Below, piece by piece: positions 1,782-48,731 of a stretch of 64,000 nucleotides of DNA; the stretch's first letter is position 1; each line of letters opens with the position of its first letter. Both the position numbers and the translations under genes were made by a program. This DNA is from Arthrobacter sp. YN. Lineage in GTDB: Bacteria; Actinomycetota; Actinomycetes; Actinomycetales; Micrococcaceae. The notes under the pieces were generated by a model. It was not told the origin of the DNA and searched no databases. It saw only the letters and a list, made by a program, of their open reading frames with translations. The stretch is from contig NZ_CP022436.1 in the NCBI RefSeq assembly GCF_002224285.1, positions 2,542,001 through 2,606,000 on the forward strand, in the 5' to 3' direction.

Positions 1782-2387
1782 ATGAACATGCTGCTCGGCT
1801 ACCTCCGACAGGCAGGCACCGCCTTCCGGTTCCTGCTCCTCGCCACCCTCATCTTGGGGCTTGCCTACCCGTTGGCAGTCTTCGGGGTGGGACAGGCTGT
1901 TGCCCCGTTCCAGGCCAACGGCTCCATCGTCAAAGACGACGCCGGAAATCCGGCGGCTTCAGCGCTGATCGCGCAGGCTTCCGCTGACGACGCAGGGACT
2001 CAGGACCCGGCCTGGTTCCACACGCGACCCTCGGCCGTTGGCTGGGACCCGGCGTCGTCGTCGGCCAGCAATCTGGGTCCCAACGACGCAAAATTGCTCG
2101 ACGCCGTCACCGCCAACCGCGCGGCCGTTGCGGAGTCGGAAGGCGTCAGTGAGGCCGCTGTGCCTGCAGATGCCGTGACGGCCAGCGGCTCGGGACTGGA
2201 CCCGGACATCTCCGTTGAGTACGCCACACTCCAGATCCCGCGGGTGGCGAAAGCGCAGGGGCTCAGTCTTGAAGCTGTTCAAGGCCTCGTGGACAAGTAC
2301 ACGAGTGATGGACTGGAAGCATTTTTAGGCCAACCAGGGGTGAATGTCACTGAGCTGAATCTGGCCGTTGCGGAGGTCGCACGGTGA
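1782..2387 (+). CDS. kdpC: Potassium-transporting ATPase subunit C
   Basis: KdpC is the single-pass membrane subunit that stabilises the KdpFABC complex. The 201-residue product has one N-terminal hydrophobic segment (about residues 13-36) followed by a periplasm-facing domain with the family motifs NGSIV, WFHTRPSA and a C-terminal VNVTELNLAV. The ATG at 1782 is preferred because it starts the conserved N-terminus; an upstream TTG in frame would only add residues that overlap kdpB. Length is normal for the family. It sits between kdpB (10-base gap) and kdpD (40-base gap). Confidence 0.95.
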   Translation: MNMLLGYLRQAGTAFRFLLLATLILGLAYPLAVFGVGQAVAPFQANGSIVKDDAGNPAASALIAQASADDAGTQDPAWFHTRPSAVGWDPASSSASNLGPNDAKLLDAVTANRAAVAESEGVSEAAVPADAVTASGSGLDPDISVEYATLQIPRVAKAQGLSLEAVQGLVDKYTSDGLEAFLGQPGVNVTELNLAVAEVAR

Positions 2388-2427
2388 GGCGCCGGACCGC
2401 CGGAATCACGGGTGGAAGAATGAGGCT

Positions 2428-5073
2428 ATGGCACGGGCGACACTGAGAATCTTCCTGGGGGCCGCCCCGGGGGTCGGCAAGACCTACGCCATGCTCGAAG
2501 AAGCACACCGGCTGGTGGGCCGCGGCGAGGACGTCGTGGTGGCGTTTGCCATGGATCACGGCCGCAGCGACACACGGGCACTGACCCACGGGTTGGAATC
2601 AATCCCATCACGGACCATCCAGTACCGGGGGACTGTCTTTGAGGAAATGGATCTCGACGCCGTGCTGGCCCGGCGGCCGCACACCGCCGTCGTGGATGAA
2701 TACGCCCACACCAACATCCCCGGCAGCGGCAATGAAAAACGCTGGCAGGACATCGAGGAGCTCCTCGAGGCAGGCATCAACGTGCTGTCCACCGTGAACG
2801 TGCAACATCTGGCGTCACTGGGGGACGTTGTCCTGGCGATCACGGAAGTCCGCCAAGCAGAGACCGTTCCCGACGACGTCGTCCGCCGTGCCGACCAGAT
2901 CCATCTGGTGGACATCTCCCCGGAACTGCTCCGCCAGCGCTTGGGAGACGGCAAAATCTATGCTGCCGACAAAGTGGATGCAGCGCTGTCGAACTACTTC
3001 CGGCTCGGGAACCTGACCGCATTACGGGAGCTCGCCCTGCTCTGGCTCGCCGACCGCGTGGACGAAGGACTGTCGAAGTACAGGGCAGAGAACAACATCG
3101 ACGCCAGCTGGCCTGCCCGTGAACGCATCGTTATCGGGCTCACCGGTGGTCCCGAAGGCGAAGTCCTGATCCGGCGGGCCGCCAGAATACTCAAGCGCAT
3201 CAACGGAGGCGACCTTCTGGCCGTCCACGTCCGCGCAGCCGATGGTGTTTCCGGCGAATCCCCCCACGACCTTGAATCGCAGCGGCACCTGATCCGGGAC
3301 CTCGGCGGGAGCTATCACACGGTGGCGGGGGAGGACCCGGCCCAAGCGCTCCTGGACTTTGCCCGCAGCGTCAACGCGACACAGATCGTGGTGGGCGTGT
3401 CACGGCACCGTTCCCTGGCTGGGCGGCTCATGGGCAGTGGCGTGGGAAACAAGGTTGTCCGGGAATCAGGAGACATCGACGTCCACATGGTCTCCCATCC
3501 CTTGGGTGGCCAGGGTGTGAACCGCCCCCACCGTGGTGAGCTGGGGAGGGCTCGCGTAGCCGTAGGGTTTGGGCTGGCCGTTGTCCTGCCGGCATTGCTG
3601 CAGGTTGTCCTGGCAGCCAGTCCATCCCACAACATCGCGACGGCAGTCCTTGTCCAACTCACTGGATCGGTCGCCGTCGCCCTGGTCGGCGGGCTCTGGC
3701 CAGCACTCCTGGGAGCAGTGTGGAGCAGCCTTCTGGTGAACTACTTCTCTACGCCACCTATTGGAAACCTGACCATCAGCGATCCCCAAAACTTGCTGGC
3801 CCTCCTCGTCTTTGTCGGCGTCTCGGCCGCGGTGGCCGCCGTCGTCGACATCTCGGCACGGCGATCAAAGGAGGCCAGGCGCGCCCGCGCGGAAGCAGCA
3901 ACCATGGCTGATCTGACACGCGGCGCAACGGACGCGGAAGACACCGTCCAGGGACTGCTGGCGCAGGCCTTGGACGTCTTCCAAATGCGCGGTGCGGCAG
4001 TGTTCACGGCCGACGCCGGATCAGAACCCGAAGGTGCCTGGCGCCCGCTGGCCAAGGCCGGCGAGGTAGCCTCATTGACTCCGGAGAGCGACGATCAGCT
4101 CGTCGGTGGCGACACAATGGAACGGATCGATGACCGGACCCGGCTGGTTCTTTACGGCAGGACACTTCCGGCGAGCGACCGCCGCTTGCTGGGAGCCTTC
4201 GGCACGCATCTCGCTGCCCAGCTCGAGCGCAGGCAGCTCGCGGCCAGCCGGCGTGAAGTTACGCGGCTGGCCGAAAGCAACATCATGCGAACCTCCATCC
4301 TTCGCGCCGTATCCCACGATCTCCGCACACCCTTGGCCGGCATCAAGCTGGCCGTGGGGGGACTGAAACAACACGACGTCCAGTACACGCCCGAAGAAAT
4401 ACAGGACCTGCTCATCACCATTGACGAGTGTTCGGATCGGCTCGATGTCCTGGTGGGAAACCTTCTGGACATGTCCAGAATCACCTCCGACTCCGTCAAC
4501 GCTCTCATCAAGCCCGTCCGCTGGTCTGAAGTGATCCCACCCGCCTTGCGCGGAGTACCTGCCGGCAGTGTCCGCGTTGACCTGCCGGCAAACCTCCCCG
4601 CCATCGACGCGGATGCGGGCATGCTTGAACGCGTGATTGCCAACATCGCAGAGAACGCCGTCAAATATGCGCCGGGTTCGGACATAGTGATCGTGGCGTC
4701 GGGCGGCGGGTTGAGCACCACGTCCTTGGACGGCCGCCCCTCGGGAGAGCTGCGCATCATCGACCACGGCAAGGGTGTTCCCGCGGACGGCGTTGTGCGC
4801 ATGTTCCAGCCGTTCCAACGCCTGGATGACGTCCCCGCGAGCACTGGCGTCGGATTGGGCCTGGCAGTTGCAAAGGGCTTCGCGGAAGCCATGGGCGGCA
4901 CCCTGAATGCCGAGGCAACACCGGGCGGCGGCCTGACCATGGTCATCCGGATGCCACTCTCCACGGGAGCACTTCTCGAACGGGCTTCGGGGCATGCACC
5001 TTTGGAGGCGCAATCGGTGCTGCTGCACCACCCCCATGTCCCGCCTGCGGATACGCGGCGGGGTGCTCGATGA
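2428..5073 (+). CDS. kdpD: Osmosensitive K+ channel sensor histidine kinase
   Basis: Sensor kinase that controls kdp expression in response to low K+ or osmotic stress by phosphorylating KdpE. The 881-residue product has the full KdpD layout: an N-terminal domain with Walker A GAAPGVGKT (residues 11-19), a USP-like domain (about 240-370), a DUF4118 block of four membrane segments (about 390-500), a GAF-like region, the HisKA domain with SHDLRTPL (phospho-acceptor H630), and the HATPase domain with N- and G-boxes (ENAVKYA, GVGLGLAV). The start at 2428 has a purine-rich GGAAG upstream and gives the usual N-terminus. Its last four bases overlap the kdpE start (ATGA), indicating translational coupling. 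Confidence 0.96.
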   Translation: MARATLRIFLGAAPGVGKTYAMLEEAHRLVGRGEDVVVAFAMDHGRSDTRALTHGLESIPSRTIQYRGTVFEEMDLDAVLARRPHTAVVDEYAHTNIPGSGNEKRWQDIEELLEAGINVLSTVNVQHLASLGDVVLAITEVRQAETVPDDVVRRADQIHLVDISPELLRQRLGDGKIYAADKVDAALSNYFRLGNLTALRELALLWLADRVDEGLSKYRAENNIDASWPARERIVIGLTGGPEGEVLIRRAARILKRINGGDLLAVHVRAADGVSGESPHDLESQRHLIRDLGGSYHTVAGEDPAQALLDFARSVNATQIVVGVSRHRSLAGRLMGSGVGNKVVRESGDIDVHMVSHPLGGQGVNRPHRGELGRARVAVGFGLAVVLPALLQVVLAASPSHNIATAVLVQLTGSVAVALVGGLWPALLGAVWSSLLVNYFSTPPIGNLTISDPQNLLALLVFVGVSAAVAAVVDISARRSKEARRARAEAATMADLTRGATDAEDTVQGLLAQALDVFQMRGAAVFTADAGSEPEGAWRPLAKAGEVASLTPESDDQLVGGDTMERIDDRTRLVLYGRTLPASDRRLLGAFGTHLAAQLERRQLAASRREVTRLAESNIMRTSILRAVSHDLRTPLAGIKLAVGGLKQHDVQYTPEEIQDLLITIDECSDRLDVLVGNLLDMSRITSDSVNALIKPVRWSEVIPPALRGVPAGSVRVDLPANLPAIDADAGMLERVIANIAENAVKYAPGSDIVIVASGGGLSTTSLDGRPSGELRIIDHGKGVPADGVVRMFQPFQRLDDVPASTGVGLGLAVAKGFAEAMGGTLNAEATPGGGLTMVIRMPLSTGALLERASGHAPLEAQSVLLHHPHVPPADTRRGAR

Positions 5074-5747
5074 GCAATATTCTGGTGGTGGATGACGATC
5101 CGCACATCCTCAAGGCATTGCAGATCACGTTGAAAGCCCACGGTTATGGAGTAACGACGGCCGAAAACGGTGAAGCCGCGCTGCTGTCAGCGGCCCAGCA
5201 CCCGGTCGCCGTCGTCGTCCTGGACCTTGGACTGCCCGACATCGACGGCACCGAGGTCATCATCAGGCTTCGGGAATGGAGCGACGTGCCCATTCTGGTA
5301 CTTTCCGCACGGCACGGGTCCACCGACAAAGTAGAAGCCCTCGACGCAGGAGCTGACGACTACATCACCAAGCCGTTTGGGCTGGAGGAACTCCTGGCCC
5401 GCCTTCGCGCGGCCCTGCGGCGTACCGTGGAACAGCCTGCGGAAGCGCCGCTGGTGGTGACCTCCACTTTCACGCTTGATTTCTCCGGGCGAAAGGCCAA
5501 CCGCGACGGTGACGACGTTCGGTTGACTCCCACTGAATGGAGCATTCTGGACGTCCTTGTCCGGAACCCCGAGAAACTCATCACCCAGCAGCAGCTCCTT
5601 ACCGAGGTGTGGGGGCCGGCCTACGCCAAGGAAGCCAACTATCTTCGGGTTTACATGGCGCAGCTTCGGCGCAAGCTCGAACCGGAGCCGGGGAATCCGC
5701 GACACTTCATTACCGAACCCGGGATGGGATACCGTTTCCAGCCATGA
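5070..5747 (+). CDS. kdpE: Kdp operon response regulator
   Basis: OmpR-type response regulator partnered with KdpD. The 225-residue product has a receiver domain with the acidic pocket D8-D10, phospho-acceptor D52 (VVVLDLGLPD) and conserved K101 (ITKPFG), followed by a winged-helix DNA-binding domain (about 125-225) with the typical LTPTEW and YLRVYMAQLRRKLE segments. It overlaps kdpD by four bases. Presumably activates the kdpFABC promoter, which is outside the window on the left. Confidence 0.96.
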   Translation: MSNILVVDDDPHILKALQITLKAHGYGVTTAENGEAALLSAAQHPVAVVVLDLGLPDIDGTEVIIRLREWSDVPILVLSARHGSTDKVEALDAGADDYITKPFGLEELLARLRAALRRTVEQPAEAPLVVTSTFTLDFSGRKANRDGDDVRLTPTEWSILDVLVRNPEKLITQQQLLTEVWGPAYAKEANYLRVYMAQLRRKLEPEPGNPRHFITEPGMGYRFQP

Positions 5748-5866: not shown

Positions 5867-5885
5867 TTAGGCTTGGCTAACCTAA
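5867..5885 (+). promoter_or_regulatory. DtxR/IdeR-type iron box and promoter of the fbp operon
   Basis: The 19-mer TTAGGCTTGGCTAACCTAA matches the DtxR/IdeR consensus palindrome TTAGGTTAGGCTAACCTAA at 17 of 19 positions. A plausible -35 (TTGGAT, 5859-5864) and -10 (TAAAGT, 5883-5888), 18 bases apart, bracket it, so an Fe2+-bound repressor would block the polymerase. It lies 54 bases before the iron-binding lipoprotein gene. The match is seen directly; regulation by DtxR is inferred. Confidence 0.85.
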
Positions 5886-5939: not shown

Positions 5940-6989
5940 ATGAAGTTCCGCAAGAACGCGCTGGCCGGAATCGCACTGGCCGCCACCGCAGCCCTCGGCC
6001 TCGCGGCCTGTGGCTCCAACGCCGGCACAGCACCTGCCGCCTCCGAATCCGCCGCTCCAAGCGATGGCATCACTGTGTACAACGCTCAGCATGAGAGCCT
6101 GACCAAGGAATGGATCGAAGCCTTCACGAAGGAAACGGGCATTAAGGTCACCCTTCGGCAGGGCTCGGACACTGAGATGTCCAACCAGATCGTCCAGGAA
6201 GGTGCGGCGTCCCCGGCGGACGTTTTCCTCACGGAGAATTCCCCTGCAATGGCGCAGGTTGAAAACGCAGGCCTCTTCGCTGACGTCGACGCGGCCACCA
6301 TCGATCAGGTCCCGGCGGAGTTCCGCCCGTCCACGGGTAAGTGGACCGGCATTGCCGCTCGCTCCACTGTTCTGGTCTATGACAAGAACAAGATCAGTGA
6401 AGACAAGCTCCCAAAGTCCATGCTTGATCTGGCCAACCCCGAATGGAAGGGCAAGTGGGCTGCTTCGCCCACCGGCGCCGACTACCAGGCAATCGTTGCC
6501 GCCCTGCTCGAGCTCAAGGGTGAGGCCGCTACGGAAGCCTGGCTCAAGGGCATGAAGGAAAACTTCAAGGCCTACAAGGGCAACGGCACGGCCATGAAGG
6601 CGGTCAACGCCGGAGAAGTCGACGCTGCACTGATTTACCACTACTACTATTACGGCGATCAGGCCAAGACCGGTGAGAACTCCAAGAACGTCACGCCGTA
6701 CTACTTCAAGAACCAGGACCCGGGTGCGTTCCTTTCCATCTCCGGCGGCGGTGTCCTGAAGTCGTCCAAGAAGGCAGCCGACGCCCAGGCATTCCTGAAG
6801 TTCATCACGGGCAAGCAAGGCCAGGAGATCCTCAAGACCGGTACCTCATTCGAGTACGCCATCGCGTCCCAGGTTGATGCCAACCAGAAGCTGGTTCCCA
6901 TCAAGGAACTGCAGGCACCGGCCGTTGACCCGGCCAAGTTGAATTCCACCAAGGTCACCGATCTGATGACCAAGGCAGGACTGCTGTAA
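5940..6989 (+). CDS. Ferric iron ABC transporter substrate-binding lipoprotein
   Basis: FbpA-type binding protein that captures Fe3+ outside the membrane and hands it to the permease encoded next. The 349-residue product has a lipoprotein signal peptide with lipobox LAAC (C24), then a class-2 periplasmic-binding fold (ITVYNAQHE...FTKETGIKV). A tyrosine-rich run at residues 233-238 (YHYYYY) corresponds to the place where FbpA proteins supply paired tyrosines as iron ligands, which supports iron rather than sulfate or thiamine. A DtxR-type box lies upstream. The next gene starts four bases after its stop. Confidence 0.93.
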   Translation: MKFRKNALAGIALAATAALGLAACGSNAGTAPAASESAAPSDGITVYNAQHESLTKEWIEAFTKETGIKVTLRQGSDTEMSNQIVQEGAASPADVFLTENSPAMAQVENAGLFADVDAATIDQVPAEFRPSTGKWTGIAARSTVLVYDKNKISEDKLPKSMLDLANPEWKGKWAASPTGADYQAIVAALLELKGEAATEAWLKGMKENFKAYKGNGTAMKAVNAGEVDAALIYHYYYYGDQAKTGENSKNVTPYYFKNQDPGAFLSISGGGVLKSSKKAADAQAFLKFITGKQGQEILKTGTSFEYAIASQVDANQKLVPIKELQAPAVDPAKLNSTKVTDLMTKAGLL

Positions 6990-6993
6990 TTCC

Positions 6994-8592
6994 GTGACCG
7001 TTCGGTTTTCGGCTTCCGGCTCGCAGAGCCAGGAAAGCACGACGACGGCGGGTGGGGGCAAGCGCCCCCGCCCGCCCTTCGGCGTTTCCACGGTGTCCTT
7101 GCTGGCAGTGCTGATAGCACTGTTTTCGCTGGTGCCGTTGGGCTATGTCGTTTATATGACAGCAGTGACAGGTTGGGACACCGCCGTCGAATTGATTGTC
7201 CGGCCGCGGGTCGGCGAGTTGCTGCTGAACACGATCATGCTGATGGTTTTGACTGTTCCGCTGTGCCTTGTTCTGGGCGTCGGCGGGGCCTGGCTGGTGG
7301 AGCGGACCAACCTTCGCGGGCACCGCTGGTGGGCTGTCGCGTTGGCAGCGCCTCTGGCTATTCCTGCGTTTGTGAACAGCTACTCCTGGGTGTCCGCAGT
7401 TCCTTCATTGGAGGGAATCTGGTCTGGCGTGCTCATCGCCACGCTGTCCTACTTCCCGCTCGTCTACATCCCGGCAGCCGCTACTCTAGGCAGGCTGGAC
7501 CCGGCTATCGAGCAGTCCGCGGCCTCGATGGGCTATGGTCCTTGGGCCGTGTTCTTCCGAGTGGTGCTGCCTCAACTTCGTATCGCGATGACCGGCGGGG
7601 CTCTGCTGGTGGCGTTGCATCTCCTGGCGGAGTACGGAGCCTTTGCCATGATCCGATTCGATACCTTCACCACCGCGATCATGGTCCAGTTTCAGTCGAC
7701 GTTCAACGGCACGGCAGGCAATATGTTGGCCAGCGTCCTGGTCTTTCTTTGCCTTATCCTGTTGCTCGCCGAGGTGAAAAGCCGCGGCTCGGCCCGCTAC
7801 GCACGCGTAGGTTCCGGCGCCCAGGCCAAAGCCACCCGGATTGCTCTCGGCGGTTATCAGCTGCCGGCGCAACTGGGGATGCTGGCGCTGACTGTCCTGG
7901 CTTTCGGGCTCCCAGTGTGGTTTGTGCTGCGCTGGACTATTGCAGGAGGGCCTGGTGTTTGGGCAGCGGACGAGTTCGTCCCGGCGCTCCTGCAAACCCT
8001 CTTGTACGGGGCAGCGGGCGCTGCAGTCACCACGGTGGTGGCCTTCCCCATGGCCTACTTGGCTGTCCGGCATCCCGGCTGGTTCAGCAAAATGCTTGAG
8101 CTTTCCAATTATGTGACCAGCTCAATGCCGGGGATCGTGGTGGGCCTTGCGTTCGTCACCGTCAGCATCCGCGCCATTCCGGGTGTCTACCAAAGCGCGG
8201 GTGTCCTGATCGCTGCCTACGTCCTCCTTTTCGTGCCGCGCGCGTTGGTCAACCTTCGCTCCGGCCTGGCCCAAGCGCCCAAGGAGCTCGACGAGGCCGC
8301 CCAGTCCCTCGGCAAGGCTCCGCTGGTGTCCTTCTTCAAAGTCACTTTGCGGCTCACCGCCCCCGCCGCTGCTGGGGGAGCGGCGCTGGTTTTCCTCGCC
8401 ATCGTCAATGAACTCACGGCCACACTTCTGCTTTCACCCAACGGCACCCGGACGCTCGCAACAGAGTTCTGGAGCAAGAGCAGCGAAATCGACTACACCG
8501 GCGCGGCACCCTATGCGCTGCTGATGATCCTGCTCTCGGCCCCCATGACGTACCTCCTCTTCCAACAGTCCAAGAAAGTGGCCGGACAGTGA
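6994..8592 (+). CDS. Ferric iron ABC transporter permease
   Basis: FbpB-type inner-membrane permease. The 532-residue product carries two fused permease halves, as is typical for iron uptake permeases of this family: about twelve hydrophobic segments and two EAA-type loops (around residues 170-200 and 430-460, each with a QSA/QSL-G segment). It begins with GTG four bases after the binding-protein gene and overlaps the ATPase gene by four bases (GTGA). The N-terminus has a short Ser/Gly/Pro-rich cytoplasmic tail. Function follows from the family and from the FbpA-like partner. Confidence 0.92.
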   Translation: MTVRFSASGSQSQESTTTAGGGKRPRPPFGVSTVSLLAVLIALFSLVPLGYVVYMTAVTGWDTAVELIVRPRVGELLLNTIMLMVLTVPLCLVLGVGGAWLVERTNLRGHRWWAVALAAPLAIPAFVNSYSWVSAVPSLEGIWSGVLIATLSYFPLVYIPAAATLGRLDPAIEQSAASMGYGPWAVFFRVVLPQLRIAMTGGALLVALHLLAEYGAFAMIRFDTFTTAIMVQFQSTFNGTAGNMLASVLVFLCLILLLAEVKSRGSARYARVGSGAQAKATRIALGGYQLPAQLGMLALTVLAFGLPVWFVLRWTIAGGPGVWAADEFVPALLQTLLYGAAGAAVTTVVAFPMAYLAVRHPGWFSKMLELSNYVTSSMPGIVVGLAFVTVSIRAIPGVYQSAGVLIAAYVLLFVPRALVNLRSGLAQAPKELDEAAQSLGKAPLVSFFKVTLRLTAPAAAGGAALVFLAIVNELTATLLLSPNGTRTLATEFWSKSSEIDYTGAAPYALLMILLSAPMTYLLFQQSKKVAGQ

Positions 8593-9755
8593 CTACTCAT
8601 TCCTCCCCGGGTTTCGCGGCTCCGCGCATTGCACCCTCGGTTGCACCAACAACGGACACTCACCTCGACATTATCGGCGTCACCAAGAATTTTGGTCCGC
8701 AGACAGTGTTAAGGGGTATTGACCTCTCCGTATCCAAAGGCGGCACCACGGCCATTGTGGGTCCGTCAGGCTCGGGCAAGACCACGTTGCTCAGGCTCAT
8801 CGCCGGTTTTGAACATCCCACCAGAGGCGCGATCAGTCTCAACGGATCTTTGGTTGCCGGAAACGGGGTCCGGGTTCCCGCGCACAAGCGGCACGTAGGC
8901 TACGTCGCCCAGGACGGCGCGCTCTTCCCGCATCTTTCGGTGGGGCAGAACATCTCCTTCGGTCTGGACGTTGGAGAGCTCGACGGCGGTCGGCGGGGCG
9001 TGCGGGCGCGCGTAGAGGAACTGCTCGCCATGGTTTCGCTCGATGCGTCCATGGCAAAGCGCCGCCCCCATCAGTTGTCAGGCGGTCAGCAACAAAGGGT
9101 TGCATTGGCAAGGGCCTTGGCCCGGGAGCCCGAATTGATGCTCCTCGATGAGCCGTTCTCCGCCCTCGACGCCGGGCTTCGCGTCGCGACGCGGAGAGCC
9201 GTAGCGAAGGTTCTGAACGAAGCAGGCGTGACCACCATCCTGGTCACCCACGACCAAGCCGAAGCATTGTCCTTCGCGGACCAAGTGGCCATCATGCGTG
9301 ATGGAACACTGGCCCAAATTGGCAACCCTTTCGTCGTCTACACTCGTCCCGCGGACCGTGCCACTGCGGAGTTCCTCGGGGAGGCGGTCATTCTGGACGC
9401 CTGGATGGAAGGCTCCCTGGCTACCTGCTCGCTGGGAGGTATCCCCGTCAGACGCCCGCCGGCACAAGGCAAGGTTCAACTCATGCTGCGGCCGGAACAA
9501 ATCCGCATCGCCCCGGATGGGCCCATCCGTGGCGTCGTAGTGGACACTGATTACTTCGGACCTGAAACCACCGTCCGCATCAGACTGGGTGCTTATGCCG
9601 CCCCCGACGGAGGAAGCTCAGGCAACGGCCACCGCTACCCAGGCGGCGGCGAAGTCATCACCATCAGGCATTGGAACGCGTCCATCACCAAGCCTGGAAC
9701 GGAGCTCTGCCTTCGGGTGGTCGGCGAGGGCGTGGCGTTCCCGGTGAGCGCATAG
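8589..9755 (+). CDS. Ferric iron ABC transporter ATP-binding protein
   Basis: FbpC-type ATPase that powers the permease encoded upstream. The 388-residue product shows Walker A GPSGSGKTT, signature LSGGQQQR, Walker B LMLLDEPFSALD and the switch histidine in LVTHDQAEAL. A C-terminal TOBE-like domain follows (about residues 280-388). The gene starts with GTG overlapping the permease stop, so all three genes form one transcription unit. A short Pro/Thr-rich extension precedes the ATPase domain. No obvious terminator is seen in the 63 bases before the next gene. Confidence 0.93.
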   Translation: MTTHSSPGFAAPRIAPSVAPTTDTHLDIIGVTKNFGPQTVLRGIDLSVSKGGTTAIVGPSGSGKTTLLRLIAGFEHPTRGAISLNGSLVAGNGVRVPAHKRHVGYVAQDGALFPHLSVGQNISFGLDVGELDGGRRGVRARVEELLAMVSLDASMAKRRPHQLSGGQQQRVALARALAREPELMLLDEPFSALDAGLRVATRRAVAKVLNEAGVTTILVTHDQAEALSFADQVAIMRDGTLAQIGNPFVVYTRPADRATAEFLGEAVILDAWMEGSLATCSLGGIPVRRPPAQGKVQLMLRPEQIRIAPDGPIRGVVVDTDYFGPETTVRIRLGAYAAPDGGSSGNGHRYPGGGEVITIRHWNASITKPGTELCLRVVGEGVAFPVSA

Positions 9756-9795: not shown

Positions 9796-9814
9796 TTAGG
9801 TTAGCTTTACCTTG
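9796..9814 (+). promoter_or_regulatory. DtxR/IdeR-type iron box directly before the A-T-acyltransferase gene
   Basis: The 19-mer TTAGGTTAGCTTTACCTTG has a perfect left half and a weaker right half of the DtxR/IdeR palindrome; four or five positions differ depending on how the centre is scored. It ends only four bases before the annotated ATG, so repressor binding would overlap both promoter and start region. No Shine-Dalgarno sequence fits between box and ATG, which hints at a leaderless message or a start slightly downstream. Confidence 0.72.
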
Positions 9815-9818
9815 TTCA

Positions 9819-12422
9819 ATGTCCGATGTGACTATTCAGCCGGATTTGGCCGGAGTTTCGTTCGCCGCCAACCTGGCCGCGTTCGGAGACCGTACCGCCA
9901 TCAGCGTTGGCGACCGCTCAATCAGCTATGGTGAGCTGGCCCAGCTCGTAGGGGCGATGGCGCGGTCGTTCGGTCCCGCCCGACGCCTGATTGCGCTTGA
10001 GGCCGAGAATACCTTGTCGTCGTTGACGGTCTACCTCGCTGCCATGGCGTCCGGACATCCTCTGCTGATTTTGCCCCCGGGCGGTGGCCAAGCTTCCGAA
10101 GCACTCATTGCCGCCTATGATCCCGACATTGTTGCCCGTTCAGGCCCTGGCGATTGTGTCCTGGACGTCCTGAGGGACGAGACCCGGCACGACTTACATC
10201 CCGAGTTGGCGCTCTTGGTCAGCACGTCCGGTTCCACCGGATCACCGAAACTTGTTCGTCTCTCCGGCGCCTCCGTTCAGGCCAACGCGGCCGCTATCGC
10301 CGAGTACTTGCACCTGCGTCCAAGTGACACCGCAGCCACCACGCTTCCCCTCTCGTACTGTTACGGGATGAGCGTGGTCAACAGCCACTTGCTGGTGGGC
10401 GCATCTTTGGTACTGACCGAGCTTTCGGTGGTGGATCCCTGTTTTTGGGACCTGGTCCGATCAAGGCACGTGACATCGTTTGCCGCCGTGCCGTACACGT
10501 TCGACCTTCTGGACCGGGTCGGCTTCGAGCACCTGGACCTTCCGAGCCTGCGTTACATCACCCAGGCTGGAGGCCGCCTGGCACCGGAGCGAGTCCGTTG
10601 CTACGCAGAGTTGGGCCAAAAACGCGGGTGGGACCTTTTTGTCATGTACGGGCAGACGGAGGCGACAGCCCGGATGGCCTACCTGCCACCCGACCAAGCG
10701 GCAGTCCACCCGCACGCTATCGGAGTGCCACTACCAGGCGGAGCGTTCCGGCTTGAACCAGTCCCGGGGTTGGACGCCAGCGAACTCGTATTCAGCGGCC
10801 CCAACGTCATGCTGGGCTATGCGGAGCGACCCGAGGACCTGGCTCTCGGCCGCGAAATTTCAGAGCTCCGCACCGGTGACCTTGCCCGTCAAGACCCGGG
10901 CGGCCTCTATGAAATCGTTGGCCGGCGCAGCCGATTCGTCAAAATCGCTGGGCTCCGGATTGATCTGGGACAAGTAGAACGGATCCTTTCACACCTTGGC
11001 CTCAGTGCCGCCGCTGCCGGCTCGGACGAGATGGTGGTGGCAGCAGTGGAAGGCGCCCATGACCTCGCCTTGGTCGCCAAAACTTTGGCGCAGGACCTGC
11101 GGGTGCCGCGTGCCGCCGTCGAACTTCATTCTGTACCGTCCATTCCGCGGCTGGCCAACGGAAAACCCGACTACCCGGCCATCCTGGCATTGTCCCTCCA
11201 GCCCGATTCAGATCGGCAACCAGAGGCGGAGGCAAGTACGGGTTCTGCGTCATCGACGGACACTGTGCGGGAGATTTTCGAGGACGTCCTCGAATGCCGC
11301 AACGTCAAAGGGTCCGACACGTTCGTTTCCTTGGGGGGTGACTCACTTTCCTATGTGGCTGCTTCGGTCCGTTTGGAGCGCGCTCTCGGCTATGTTCCGA
11401 CCGGCTGGCACCTCATGCCTGTGTGCGAGCTCACGCCCGCCCCTTCATCCGCTGGTCGCCAGTCCGGCGCGGTGACCAGCAAAACGGGCAAAGCCAGGAC
11501 TTTGCGGGGACGGCTGTTCGCCCGCATGGAGACAGGTATTGTTCTGCGCGCCGTGGCAATCGTCTTCATAGTGTCCACGCACTTCAAATTCTTCGACTGG
11601 GAAGGAACAGCGCACGTCCTGATGGCGCTGGCCGGCTATAACTTTGCCCGCTTCCAGTTGTCCGGCTCCCGAAAGGAGCGGCTGCTGAGGCAGCTGCGTA
11701 CCGTTGGGCGGATCGTGCTTCCGAGCGTCGTCGTGATTGCCGTCGCGTTTGTGCTCACGGATGATTATGGCTGGCAGAACGTGTTCCTGCTGAACTCTCT
11801 CCTGGGTCCCCAGGGGTGGACGGATATGTCCCGCTTCTGGTTCGTTGAGGTACTGGTCCACATCTTGCTCGGTTTGGCTGTGCTGCTCGCGATACCGGCG
11901 GTTGATCGTGCCCTGCGCAGGTGGCCGTGGGGCTTCCCCCTGGCTTTGGCGGGCGTTGACCTGCTGCAGCGCTTCGACGTCGTCGAAGTGTCGTATCCCG
12001 GGCAGGGGCCCGTGCTGTGGCTTTTTGCACTGGGTTGGGCGGCTGCGGCCTCAAAAAACGTCCGGCAGCGCGCCGTCGTCACCGCTATCGCCTTGGTGAC
12101 GATCCCCGGTTCATTTTCGGATGAGTATCGTAGTGCAACCATCGTGGTTGGGTTCCTTGTCCTGCTGTGGATCCCGACTCTGCCCGTGCCACGTGGACTG
12201 CATCGAATCACGGCTCTGCTGGCCACGTCTTCCCTGTATGTCTATGTCACTCACTGGCTGATATACCCCCTGTTGGTGGAGGGGGACAGAGGCCTGGCCG
12301 TTCTTGCTTCCTTGGCCGTTGGTGTGGCCTATTGGGCGGCTGCCACCCGGGCCATGGCCAGCGCCGAGCGGTGGCTTCTACTTCGCCGTGAGAGAGACCT
12401 TAGCCCTGGCAAGGCATCCTGA
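9819..12422 (+). CDS. Adenylation-thiolation-acyltransferase-3 fusion protein, iron-regulated
   Basis: The 867-residue product combines three modules. Residues 1-460 form an ANL adenylation domain with TSGSTGSPK (A3), YGQTEAT (A5), TGDLARQDPG (A7), GRRSRFVKIAGLRIDLGQVE (A8) and the A10 lysine in NGKPDY. Residues about 480-555 form a carrier domain with LGGDSLS; S509 is the likely phosphopantetheine site. Residues about 565-855 form a membrane acyltransferase-3 domain with about ten hydrophobic segments and the STHF segment, where this family has its catalytic histidine. It therefore probably activates a carboxylic or amino acid, loads it on itself and transfers it to an acceptor at the membrane. 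Substrate and acceptor are unknown. The iron box points to a role in iron limitation. An in-frame GTG at 9828 is an alternative start. Confidence 0.85.
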   Translation: MSDVTIQPDLAGVSFAANLAAFGDRTAISVGDRSISYGELAQLVGAMARSFGPARRLIALEAENTLSSLTVYLAAMASGHPLLILPPGGGQASEALIAAYDPDIVARSGPGDCVLDVLRDETRHDLHPELALLVSTSGSTGSPKLVRLSGASVQANAAAIAEYLHLRPSDTAATTLPLSYCYGMSVVNSHLLVGASLVLTELSVVDPCFWDLVRSRHVTSFAAVPYTFDLLDRVGFEHLDLPSLRYITQAGGRLAPERVRCYAELGQKRGWDLFVMYGQTEATARMAYLPPDQAAVHPHAIGVPLPGGAFRLEPVPGLDASELVFSGPNVMLGYAERPEDLALGREISELRTGDLARQDPGGLYEIVGRRSRFVKIAGLRIDLGQVERILSHLGLSAAAAGSDEMVVAAVEGAHDLALVAKTLAQDLRVPRAAVELHSVPSIPRLANGKPDYPAILALSLQPDSDRQPEAEASTGSASSTDTVREIFEDVLECRNVKGSDTFVSLGGDSLSYVAASVRLERALGYVPTGWHLMPVCELTPAPSSAGRQSGAVTSKTGKARTLRGRLFARMETGIVLRAVAIVFIVSTHFKFFDWEGTAHVLMALAGYNFARFQLSGSRKERLLRQLRTVGRIVLPSVVVIAVAFVLTDDYGWQNVFLLNSLLGPQGWTDMSRFWFVEVLVHILLGLAVLLAIPAVDRALRRWPWGFPLALAGVDLLQRFDVVEVSYPGQGPVLWLFALGWAAAASKNVRQRAVVTAIALVTIPGSFSDEYRSATIVVGFLVLLWIPTLPVPRGLHRITALLATSSLYVYVTHWLIYPLLVEGDRGLAVLASLAVGVAYWAAATRAMASAERWLLLRRERDLSPGKAS

Positions 12423-48712: not shown

Positions 48713-48731
48713 CGAGGTAAGGCTAACCTAA
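48713..48731 (+). promoter_or_regulatory. DtxR/IdeR-type iron box before a peptide-type ABC importer
   Basis: CGAGGTAAGGCTAACCTAA matches the DtxR/IdeR consensus at 16 of 19 positions, with the right half perfect. It sits between a -35-like TTGCGC (48707-48712) and a -10-like TAAATA (48729-48734) with a 16-base spacer, the same arrangement as at the fbp operon. It lies 58 bases before the start of the binding-protein gene. Confidence 0.82.

Follow-up and report, generated by a model that had tools for sequence, protein, structure and literature searches.

The stretch of Arthrobacter sp. YN DNA analysed here (64,000 nucleotides of NZ_CP022436.1, positions 2,542,001 to 2,606,000; hereafter the window) encodes, behind an Fbp-type ferric importer, an 867-residue protein that joins an ANL adenylation domain, a phosphopantetheine carrier and a transmembrane acyltransferase of the AT3 (TmAT) type on one polypeptide. 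Its domains, catalytic residues and fold, the conserved iron boxes and the repeated linkage to Fbp importers are backed by sequence and structure models. We consider it moderately probable that this fusion is an iron-repressed machine that would activate an acid, load it onto its own carrier, transfer the acyl group to the outside of the cell and aid the passage of ferric iron to the binding protein FbpA. An initial annotation of the window had proposed an acid-activating membrane machine for iron starvation, and this outline gains support from the recurrence of iron boxes and Fbp genes, the three domains and the TmAT fold of the model.

The fusion is encoded by a single open reading frame (ORF) on which Pfam places, in order, AMP-binding (residues 125-334, E 1.6e-36), PP-binding (481-524, 2.4e-5) and Acyl_transf_3 (575-819, 1.8e-8), all above cut-off and the only three families at E<=0.001 (Table 1). 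The initial annotation had named the same three domains and the carrier serine S509, which is kept in 96/96 aligned rows; residue counts here and below refer to 96 of 99 aligned rows, three not over 800 residues being excluded. The N-terminal part has the features of a carrier-loading ANL enzyme, with AMP-binding above the Pfam cut-off, the lysine K449 in what we take to be the A10 motif and a carrier domain behind it. For the model of the whole protein, Foldseek and VIA list adenylation-enzyme structures.

Table 1. Features of the importer and fusion locus, in window coordinates.
Feature	Position	Strand	Basis
DtxR/IdeR-type iron box before fbpA, TTAGGCTTGGCTAACCTAA, 16/18	5867..5885	+	Pattern scan, consensus PMC1382209
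fbpA-like ferric-binding lipoprotein, SBP_bac_6, YHYYYY motif, lipobox-like	5940..6989	+	Pfam, alignment
fbpB-like fused two-unit ABC permease	6994..8592	+	Pfam
fbpC-like ABC ATPase with TOBE domain	8589..9755	+	Pfam
DtxR/IdeR-type iron box, TTAGGTTAGCTTTACCTTG, 14/18, 23 to 5 bases before fusion ATG	9796..9814	+	Consensus match, kept in relatives
Adenylation-carrier-AT3 fusion protein, 867 residues	9819..12422	+	ORF list, Pfam, database search, alignment
ANL adenylation domain, about residues 8-460	9840..11198	+	Pfam, alignment; C181, R285, K449
Phosphopantetheine carrier domain, about residues 479-540	11253..11438	+	Pfam
S509 codon, phosphopantetheine attachment serine	11343..11345	+	Serine in 96/96 rows
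AT3/TmAT transmembrane acyltransferase domain, about residues 566-860, R577-X10-H588	11514..12398	+	Pfam, alignment, model

A sequence search of the PDB with the AT3 part gave no match up to E 1, and Foldseek with the AT3 model returned nothing under E 0.001; HGSNAT and GWT1 surfaced in a second look with VIA. By this structure comparison the modelled part adopts the HGSNAT/GWT1 fold, with the ten helices of the TmAT proteins and R-X10-H intact. This motif, located in the first transmembrane helix (TMH1) in the available text of PMC9833829, is formed by R577 and H588, both present in 96/96 rows. The domain also carries RxxR (R621-x-x-R624) and SxxxY (S805-x-x-x-Y809), and the TMH2 Phe of AT3 proteins is replaced.

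The pocket residues of the adenylation domain, to which the initial annotation had drawn attention, suggest what kind of acid might be activated. Residue 181, at the position of the amino-binding Asp and aligned with VinN Asp230, is mostly cysteine (C in 92/96 rows, S in 3, T in 1), and the invariant R285 aligns with VinN Arg331, a proposed carboxyl binder. VinN Ser299 is aligned with Ala. The substrate would be a small carboxylic acid that lacks an alpha-amino group and probably carries a second carboxylate or a similar anion.

The genes ahead of the fusion encode a binding protein, a fused permease and an ATPase, and the 63-base gap between the ATPase gene and the fusion gene contains the iron-box-like 19-mer. 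The label 'ferric', already given to this operon by the initial annotation, is retained because the binding protein has the adjacent Tyr ligands of an HYY motif, which we take to be a mark of ferric binding, and because an iron box precedes it; no NCBIfam model among the matches listed is above cut-off for the three proteins (for the ATPase, 25 of 188), and the closest names, all below cut-off, include aminoethylphosphonate systems. HYY and a lipobox-like sequence occur in 36/36 FbpA proteins compared, that of the window included, and the genome of the window contains no other match to its FbpA at E<=1e-5. Directly before the importer, at 2368-5747, Pfam identifies a KdpD-type sensor kinase and an OmpR-type response regulator.

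A database search gave 4460 relatives of the fusion at E<=1e-3 among 7992 scored candidates. By name, those among the matches listed belong to Actinomycetota, from Micrococcaceae through Streptomyces and Ilumatobacteraceae, with one exception, a 'Burkholderia' entry (P0118, 60% identity to the window protein) that may be a misnamed record. The distribution is patchy: 18/396 genomes of a phylum sample match at E<=1e-40 and 30/197 of a family sample at E<=1e-60. Gene neighbourhoods were compared in the best 80 of 455 loci (Micrococcaceae to Streptomyces, Micromonospora, Kineococcus, Rhodococcus and others) and in 20 further loci, from 16 of the 18 matching phylum genomes (all but G000 and G008) and four distant ones among the 30 matching family genomes. 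Genes were picked heuristically by codon-position GC, which leaves room for missing or mistaken calls.

The box before the fusion gene had been noted as iron-box-like in the initial annotation, which made no mention of the better-scoring box before fbpA. Alone it is weak: a strict 3-mismatch scan of the window found the fbpA box and a site at 48713 and not this one, and with a relaxed pattern, again allowing 3 mismatches, it appears among 13 forward matches, two of them overlapping, in 5.06 Mb, compared with 8 for a reversed-pattern control. It becomes convincing because it is conserved at the same place in relatives. When loci were scored by how many of the 18 fixed positions were matched in the 19-bp DtxR consensus, as given in the available text of PMC1382209, a site with at least 12 matches preceded the fusion gene in 63/80 loci (65/80 in another script with different gene-start settings) and was found in 74/80 when a linked fbpA was counted too; 116/5000 random 380-base windows from the same loci reached 12. 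Among the further loci, 12/20 have such a site ahead of the fusion gene or of a linked fbpA. The boxless ones are L139, L140, L141 and L145, plus L146-L149, which are adenylation-domain-only matches or a contig fragment; L139 and L145 are Fbp-linked. From the 19-bp DtxR/IdeR box in the promoter region we infer regulation by DtxR. The remaining site of the strict scan, CGAGGTAAGGCTAACCTAA (48713-48731), lies ahead of an operon (48790 to about 53600) that by eye encodes a peptide/nickel-type ABC importer with a binding protein, two permeases and fused ATPases, possibly an iron-regulated metallophore importer.

Fbp importers likewise recur beside the fusion, and in several arrangements, as the initial annotation would lead one to look for. 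Homologues of both fbpA and fbpB are in the flanks of 26/80 loci, L132 being a 27th with fbpA only, and fbpA is in those of 8/20 further loci. A same-strand importer precedes the fusion in the window, in L054, L055, L119 and L137-L139 and in fifteen loci with linkage that fall between L098 and L121; in L122 this holds for fbpA and fbpB. Streptomyces, Kineococcus and Micromonospora loci have the importer divergent from the fusion, and L145, L150, L151 and L153 have it downstream, the fusion stop overlapping the fbpA start in L150 and L151; L144 has fbpA and fbpB convergent downstream and fbpC upstream on the opposite strand. FbpA shares 97-98% identity with the window protein in two near relatives and 27-30% in the fifteen loci, whose fusion proteins share 55-59% with that of the window. 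On a tree of 72 rows, hand-chosen to thin close Arthrobacter kin and built by a quick method, the linked/unlinked label changes 9 times, at least 6 of them forced by starred branches, where 'unlinked' includes early-ending flanks and the placement of the long branches L144/L145 and L136 is uncertain. In the 396-genome phylum sample FbpA (E<=1e-25) is present in 14/15 full-fusion genomes versus 114/381 others (p 8.9e-7, a value that ignores kinship). The adenylation-only matches G204, G189 and G338 are excluded from this count; with the three retained, it becomes 14/18 versus 114/378 (p 6.8e-5). At the same thresholds, at least two further genomes (G096, G150) of the genus coded g9 lack both genes and three have both.

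The combined results suggest a model in which low iron would cause DtxR/IdeR to release both the fusion gene and fbpABC. In the cytosol the adenylation domain would turn a small carboxylic acid into an acyl-AMP and load it onto the phosphopantetheine arm of its own carrier at S509, and this arm, on the cytosolic side, would supply the AT3 domain, whose TmAT pore and R577-X10-H588 motif would then move the acyl group to an acceptor at the outer face, which may be an envelope glycan, a lipid or a small molecule. The acylated product could be a carboxylate-rich ligand, surface-bound or in the medium, that brings ferric iron to the FbpA lipoprotein for import. A more specific form of the model, which we put forward as tentative and rather doubtful, is ferric capture by one gene: in low iron the carrier-fed AT3 would add a chelating group of the di- or tricarboxylate type to the outside of the membrane or wall, or else to a secreted carrier molecule, and the iron would be passed to the co-regulated FbpABC. 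Were that form correct, it would be a route beside the classical siderophores, widespread in Actinomycetota.

Several findings weigh against the model. The pocket is read from a single low-identity alignment with a one-residue gap just ahead of the Arg, and in the VinN text available the loop before Arg331 is one residue shorter. According to the parts of PMC9558356 at hand, acyl-CoA is favoured over acyl carrier protein as AT3 donor. The Asp of the DxxR motif is absent, residue 574 being I, V or L in 96/96 rows; this is not taken to exclude AT3 membership, because the available text of PMC12423673 describes the Asp as dispensable in OacB and GWT1 as lacking the motif. Its loss would fit a carrier donor rather than CoA, but the dispensability in OacB tempers that argument too. 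The iron genes expected beside homologues are there in the linked loci counted above and not in the 53/80 loci without an FbpA match in their flanks (tblastn E<=1e-8), some of these flanks stopping at contig ends. No box was scored in 6/80 loci and in 4 of the 16 further loci that extend beyond an adenylation domain or fragment, and the choice of the best 80 of 455 means that close kin dominate the sample. Elsewhere in the genome there is an IucA/IucC-type siderophore synthetase independent of nonribosomal peptide synthetases (G000:C1:325199-325951, L168), and several other iron-box sites lie beside ORFs that by eye resemble siderophore-binding or siderophore-interacting proteins. Because of these genes the fusion is not regarded as the sole iron route of the genome, and a siderophore route probably exists beside it.

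Three other explanations deserve comparison with the proposed delivery of iron to FbpA. The product might instead be a secreted small-molecule metallophore, made by placing the acyl group on a soluble hydroxy or amino metabolite, with FbpA binding either its ferric complex as such or iron that has been removed from that complex. We find this possible and yet hard to favour: siderophore importers usually belong to another ABC type, and in neighbour clustering of the 80 loci no unannotated cluster other than importer genes and fbpC-antisense-like ORFs occurs in more than 7, so that the acceptor would have to be a common metabolite. On the other side, the conserved boxes and the importer linkage would suit a metallophore, the AT3 domain could itself export the product, making a separate exporter unneeded, and AT3 proteins such as CmmA do acylate small molecules (PMC9558356, available text). 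A siderophore synthetase with condensation domains was rejected, as the three Pfam families at E<=0.001 include none for condensation.

The main rival to iron delivery, by analogy with Acinetobacter baumannii AimS, would be that iron starvation leads to a remodelling of the envelope in which iron itself plays no part; an acylated glycan or lipid would save energy or alter the surface, and the gene would merely share a regulon with fbp. In the text available of PMC13345540, AimS is a stand-alone AT3 protein induced by iron limitation that leaves cell metal content unchanged, and characterised stand-alone AT3 proteins mostly acylate extracellular carbohydrates. That most of the 80 loci have no linked FbpA also counts in its favour. 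A shared regulon alone, however, does not explain the repeated fbp linkage in varied layouts and the phylum-wide co-occurrence with FbpA, and we judge remodelling unlikely. Chance proximity of an ordinary acyl-CoA-ligase-like fusion to an importer for another solute could draw on the aminoethylphosphonate names and on the weakness of the window box; it is very improbable given that FbpA is the sole match in its genome and has the HYY motif, and it was rejected since box and linkage recur across families.

Some relatives have features of their own. Two fusion copies occur in some genomes or bins (G570, L059/L066, L056/L065, L086/L091), and L047 and L051 contain an in-frame TGA and may be decayed copies. 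L146 and L147 are sister adenylation domains, behind which neither a carrier nor an AT3 domain was seen; LuxE-like and LuxC-like genes follow (Pfam-confirmed for L146 only) and ORFs that by eye are acyl-carrier-protein-like (no Pfam match in L146) and SDR-like precede, perhaps an acid-to-aldehyde pathway. In L129 (Rhodococcus sp. KRD197) the fusion is neighboured by an MFS-like gene and by a 1319-residue ORF, adenylation-like by eye, that ends about 3.4 kb upstream.

If the favoured reading of iron delivery is right, a large family whose members are labelled 'AMP-binding protein', 'AMP-dependent synthetase' or 'non-ribosomal peptide synthetase' would gain a role in iron nutrition, and the fusion, as a partner of the actinobacterial Fbp importers, could account for the way ferric iron reaches them. 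A carrier protein, instead of acyl-CoA, would be a new kind of donor for AT3 enzymes, and we know of no earlier AT3 protein that is given its acyl group by a phosphopantetheine carrier of its own. The initial annotation knew of no characterised protein with this architecture; in the literature searched on the architecture or its regulation, mostly without subscription papers, no such protein or orthologue was found.

OafB, OatA, OacB, HGSNAT and GWT1 share with the fusion the AT3/TmAT fold, R-X10-H, RxxR and SxxxY, and differ from it in that the fusion has its own adenylation domain and carrier and has the DxxR Asp and TMH2 Phe replaced. As far as the available texts go, the AT3 donors described are acyl-CoA (PMC9558356), and bacterial AT3 proteins form two classes, SGNH-fused and stand-alone (PMC13345540, a 2026 preprint). 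VanT (VanTG) also joins AT3 to a cytosolic enzyme, which is a serine racemase (PMC12423673, available text) and not an adenylation-carrier pair. AimS shares the induction by iron limitation and differs in being stand-alone with metal content unchanged; 'AMP-binding' has 0 occurrences in the text of PMC13345540 at hand. The beta-carboxyl-activating enzymes VinN and BolO resemble the adenylation domain in loading a carrier and, for VinN, in the aligned arginine, whereas VinN holds an amino group by Asp230, mostly Cys in the fusion, and has Ser299 in place of Ala. In the Dlt system (DltA-DltC-DltB-DltD) an adenylation enzyme, a phosphopantetheine carrier and a membrane acyltransferase, the MBOAT protein DltB, activate an acid and deliver it to an acceptor beyond the membrane. 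The fusion would combine the same three activities on one polypeptide, and it has an iron box and Fbp linkage; membership in Dlt was rejected because the amino-binding Asp is missing (C181) and the acyltransferase is Acyl_transf_3, not MBOAT. AlmEFG likewise comprises an adenylation enzyme, a carrier and an acyltransferase, here modifying a surface lipid, lipid A, with glycine; unlike the fusion, these are separate proteins, the acyltransferase is of another family and an amino acid is activated. AlmE is listed for glycine and lipopolysaccharide modification in the available text of PMC11253843. By its sequence, the fusion appears to work in the manner of Dlt and Alm but is a member of neither.
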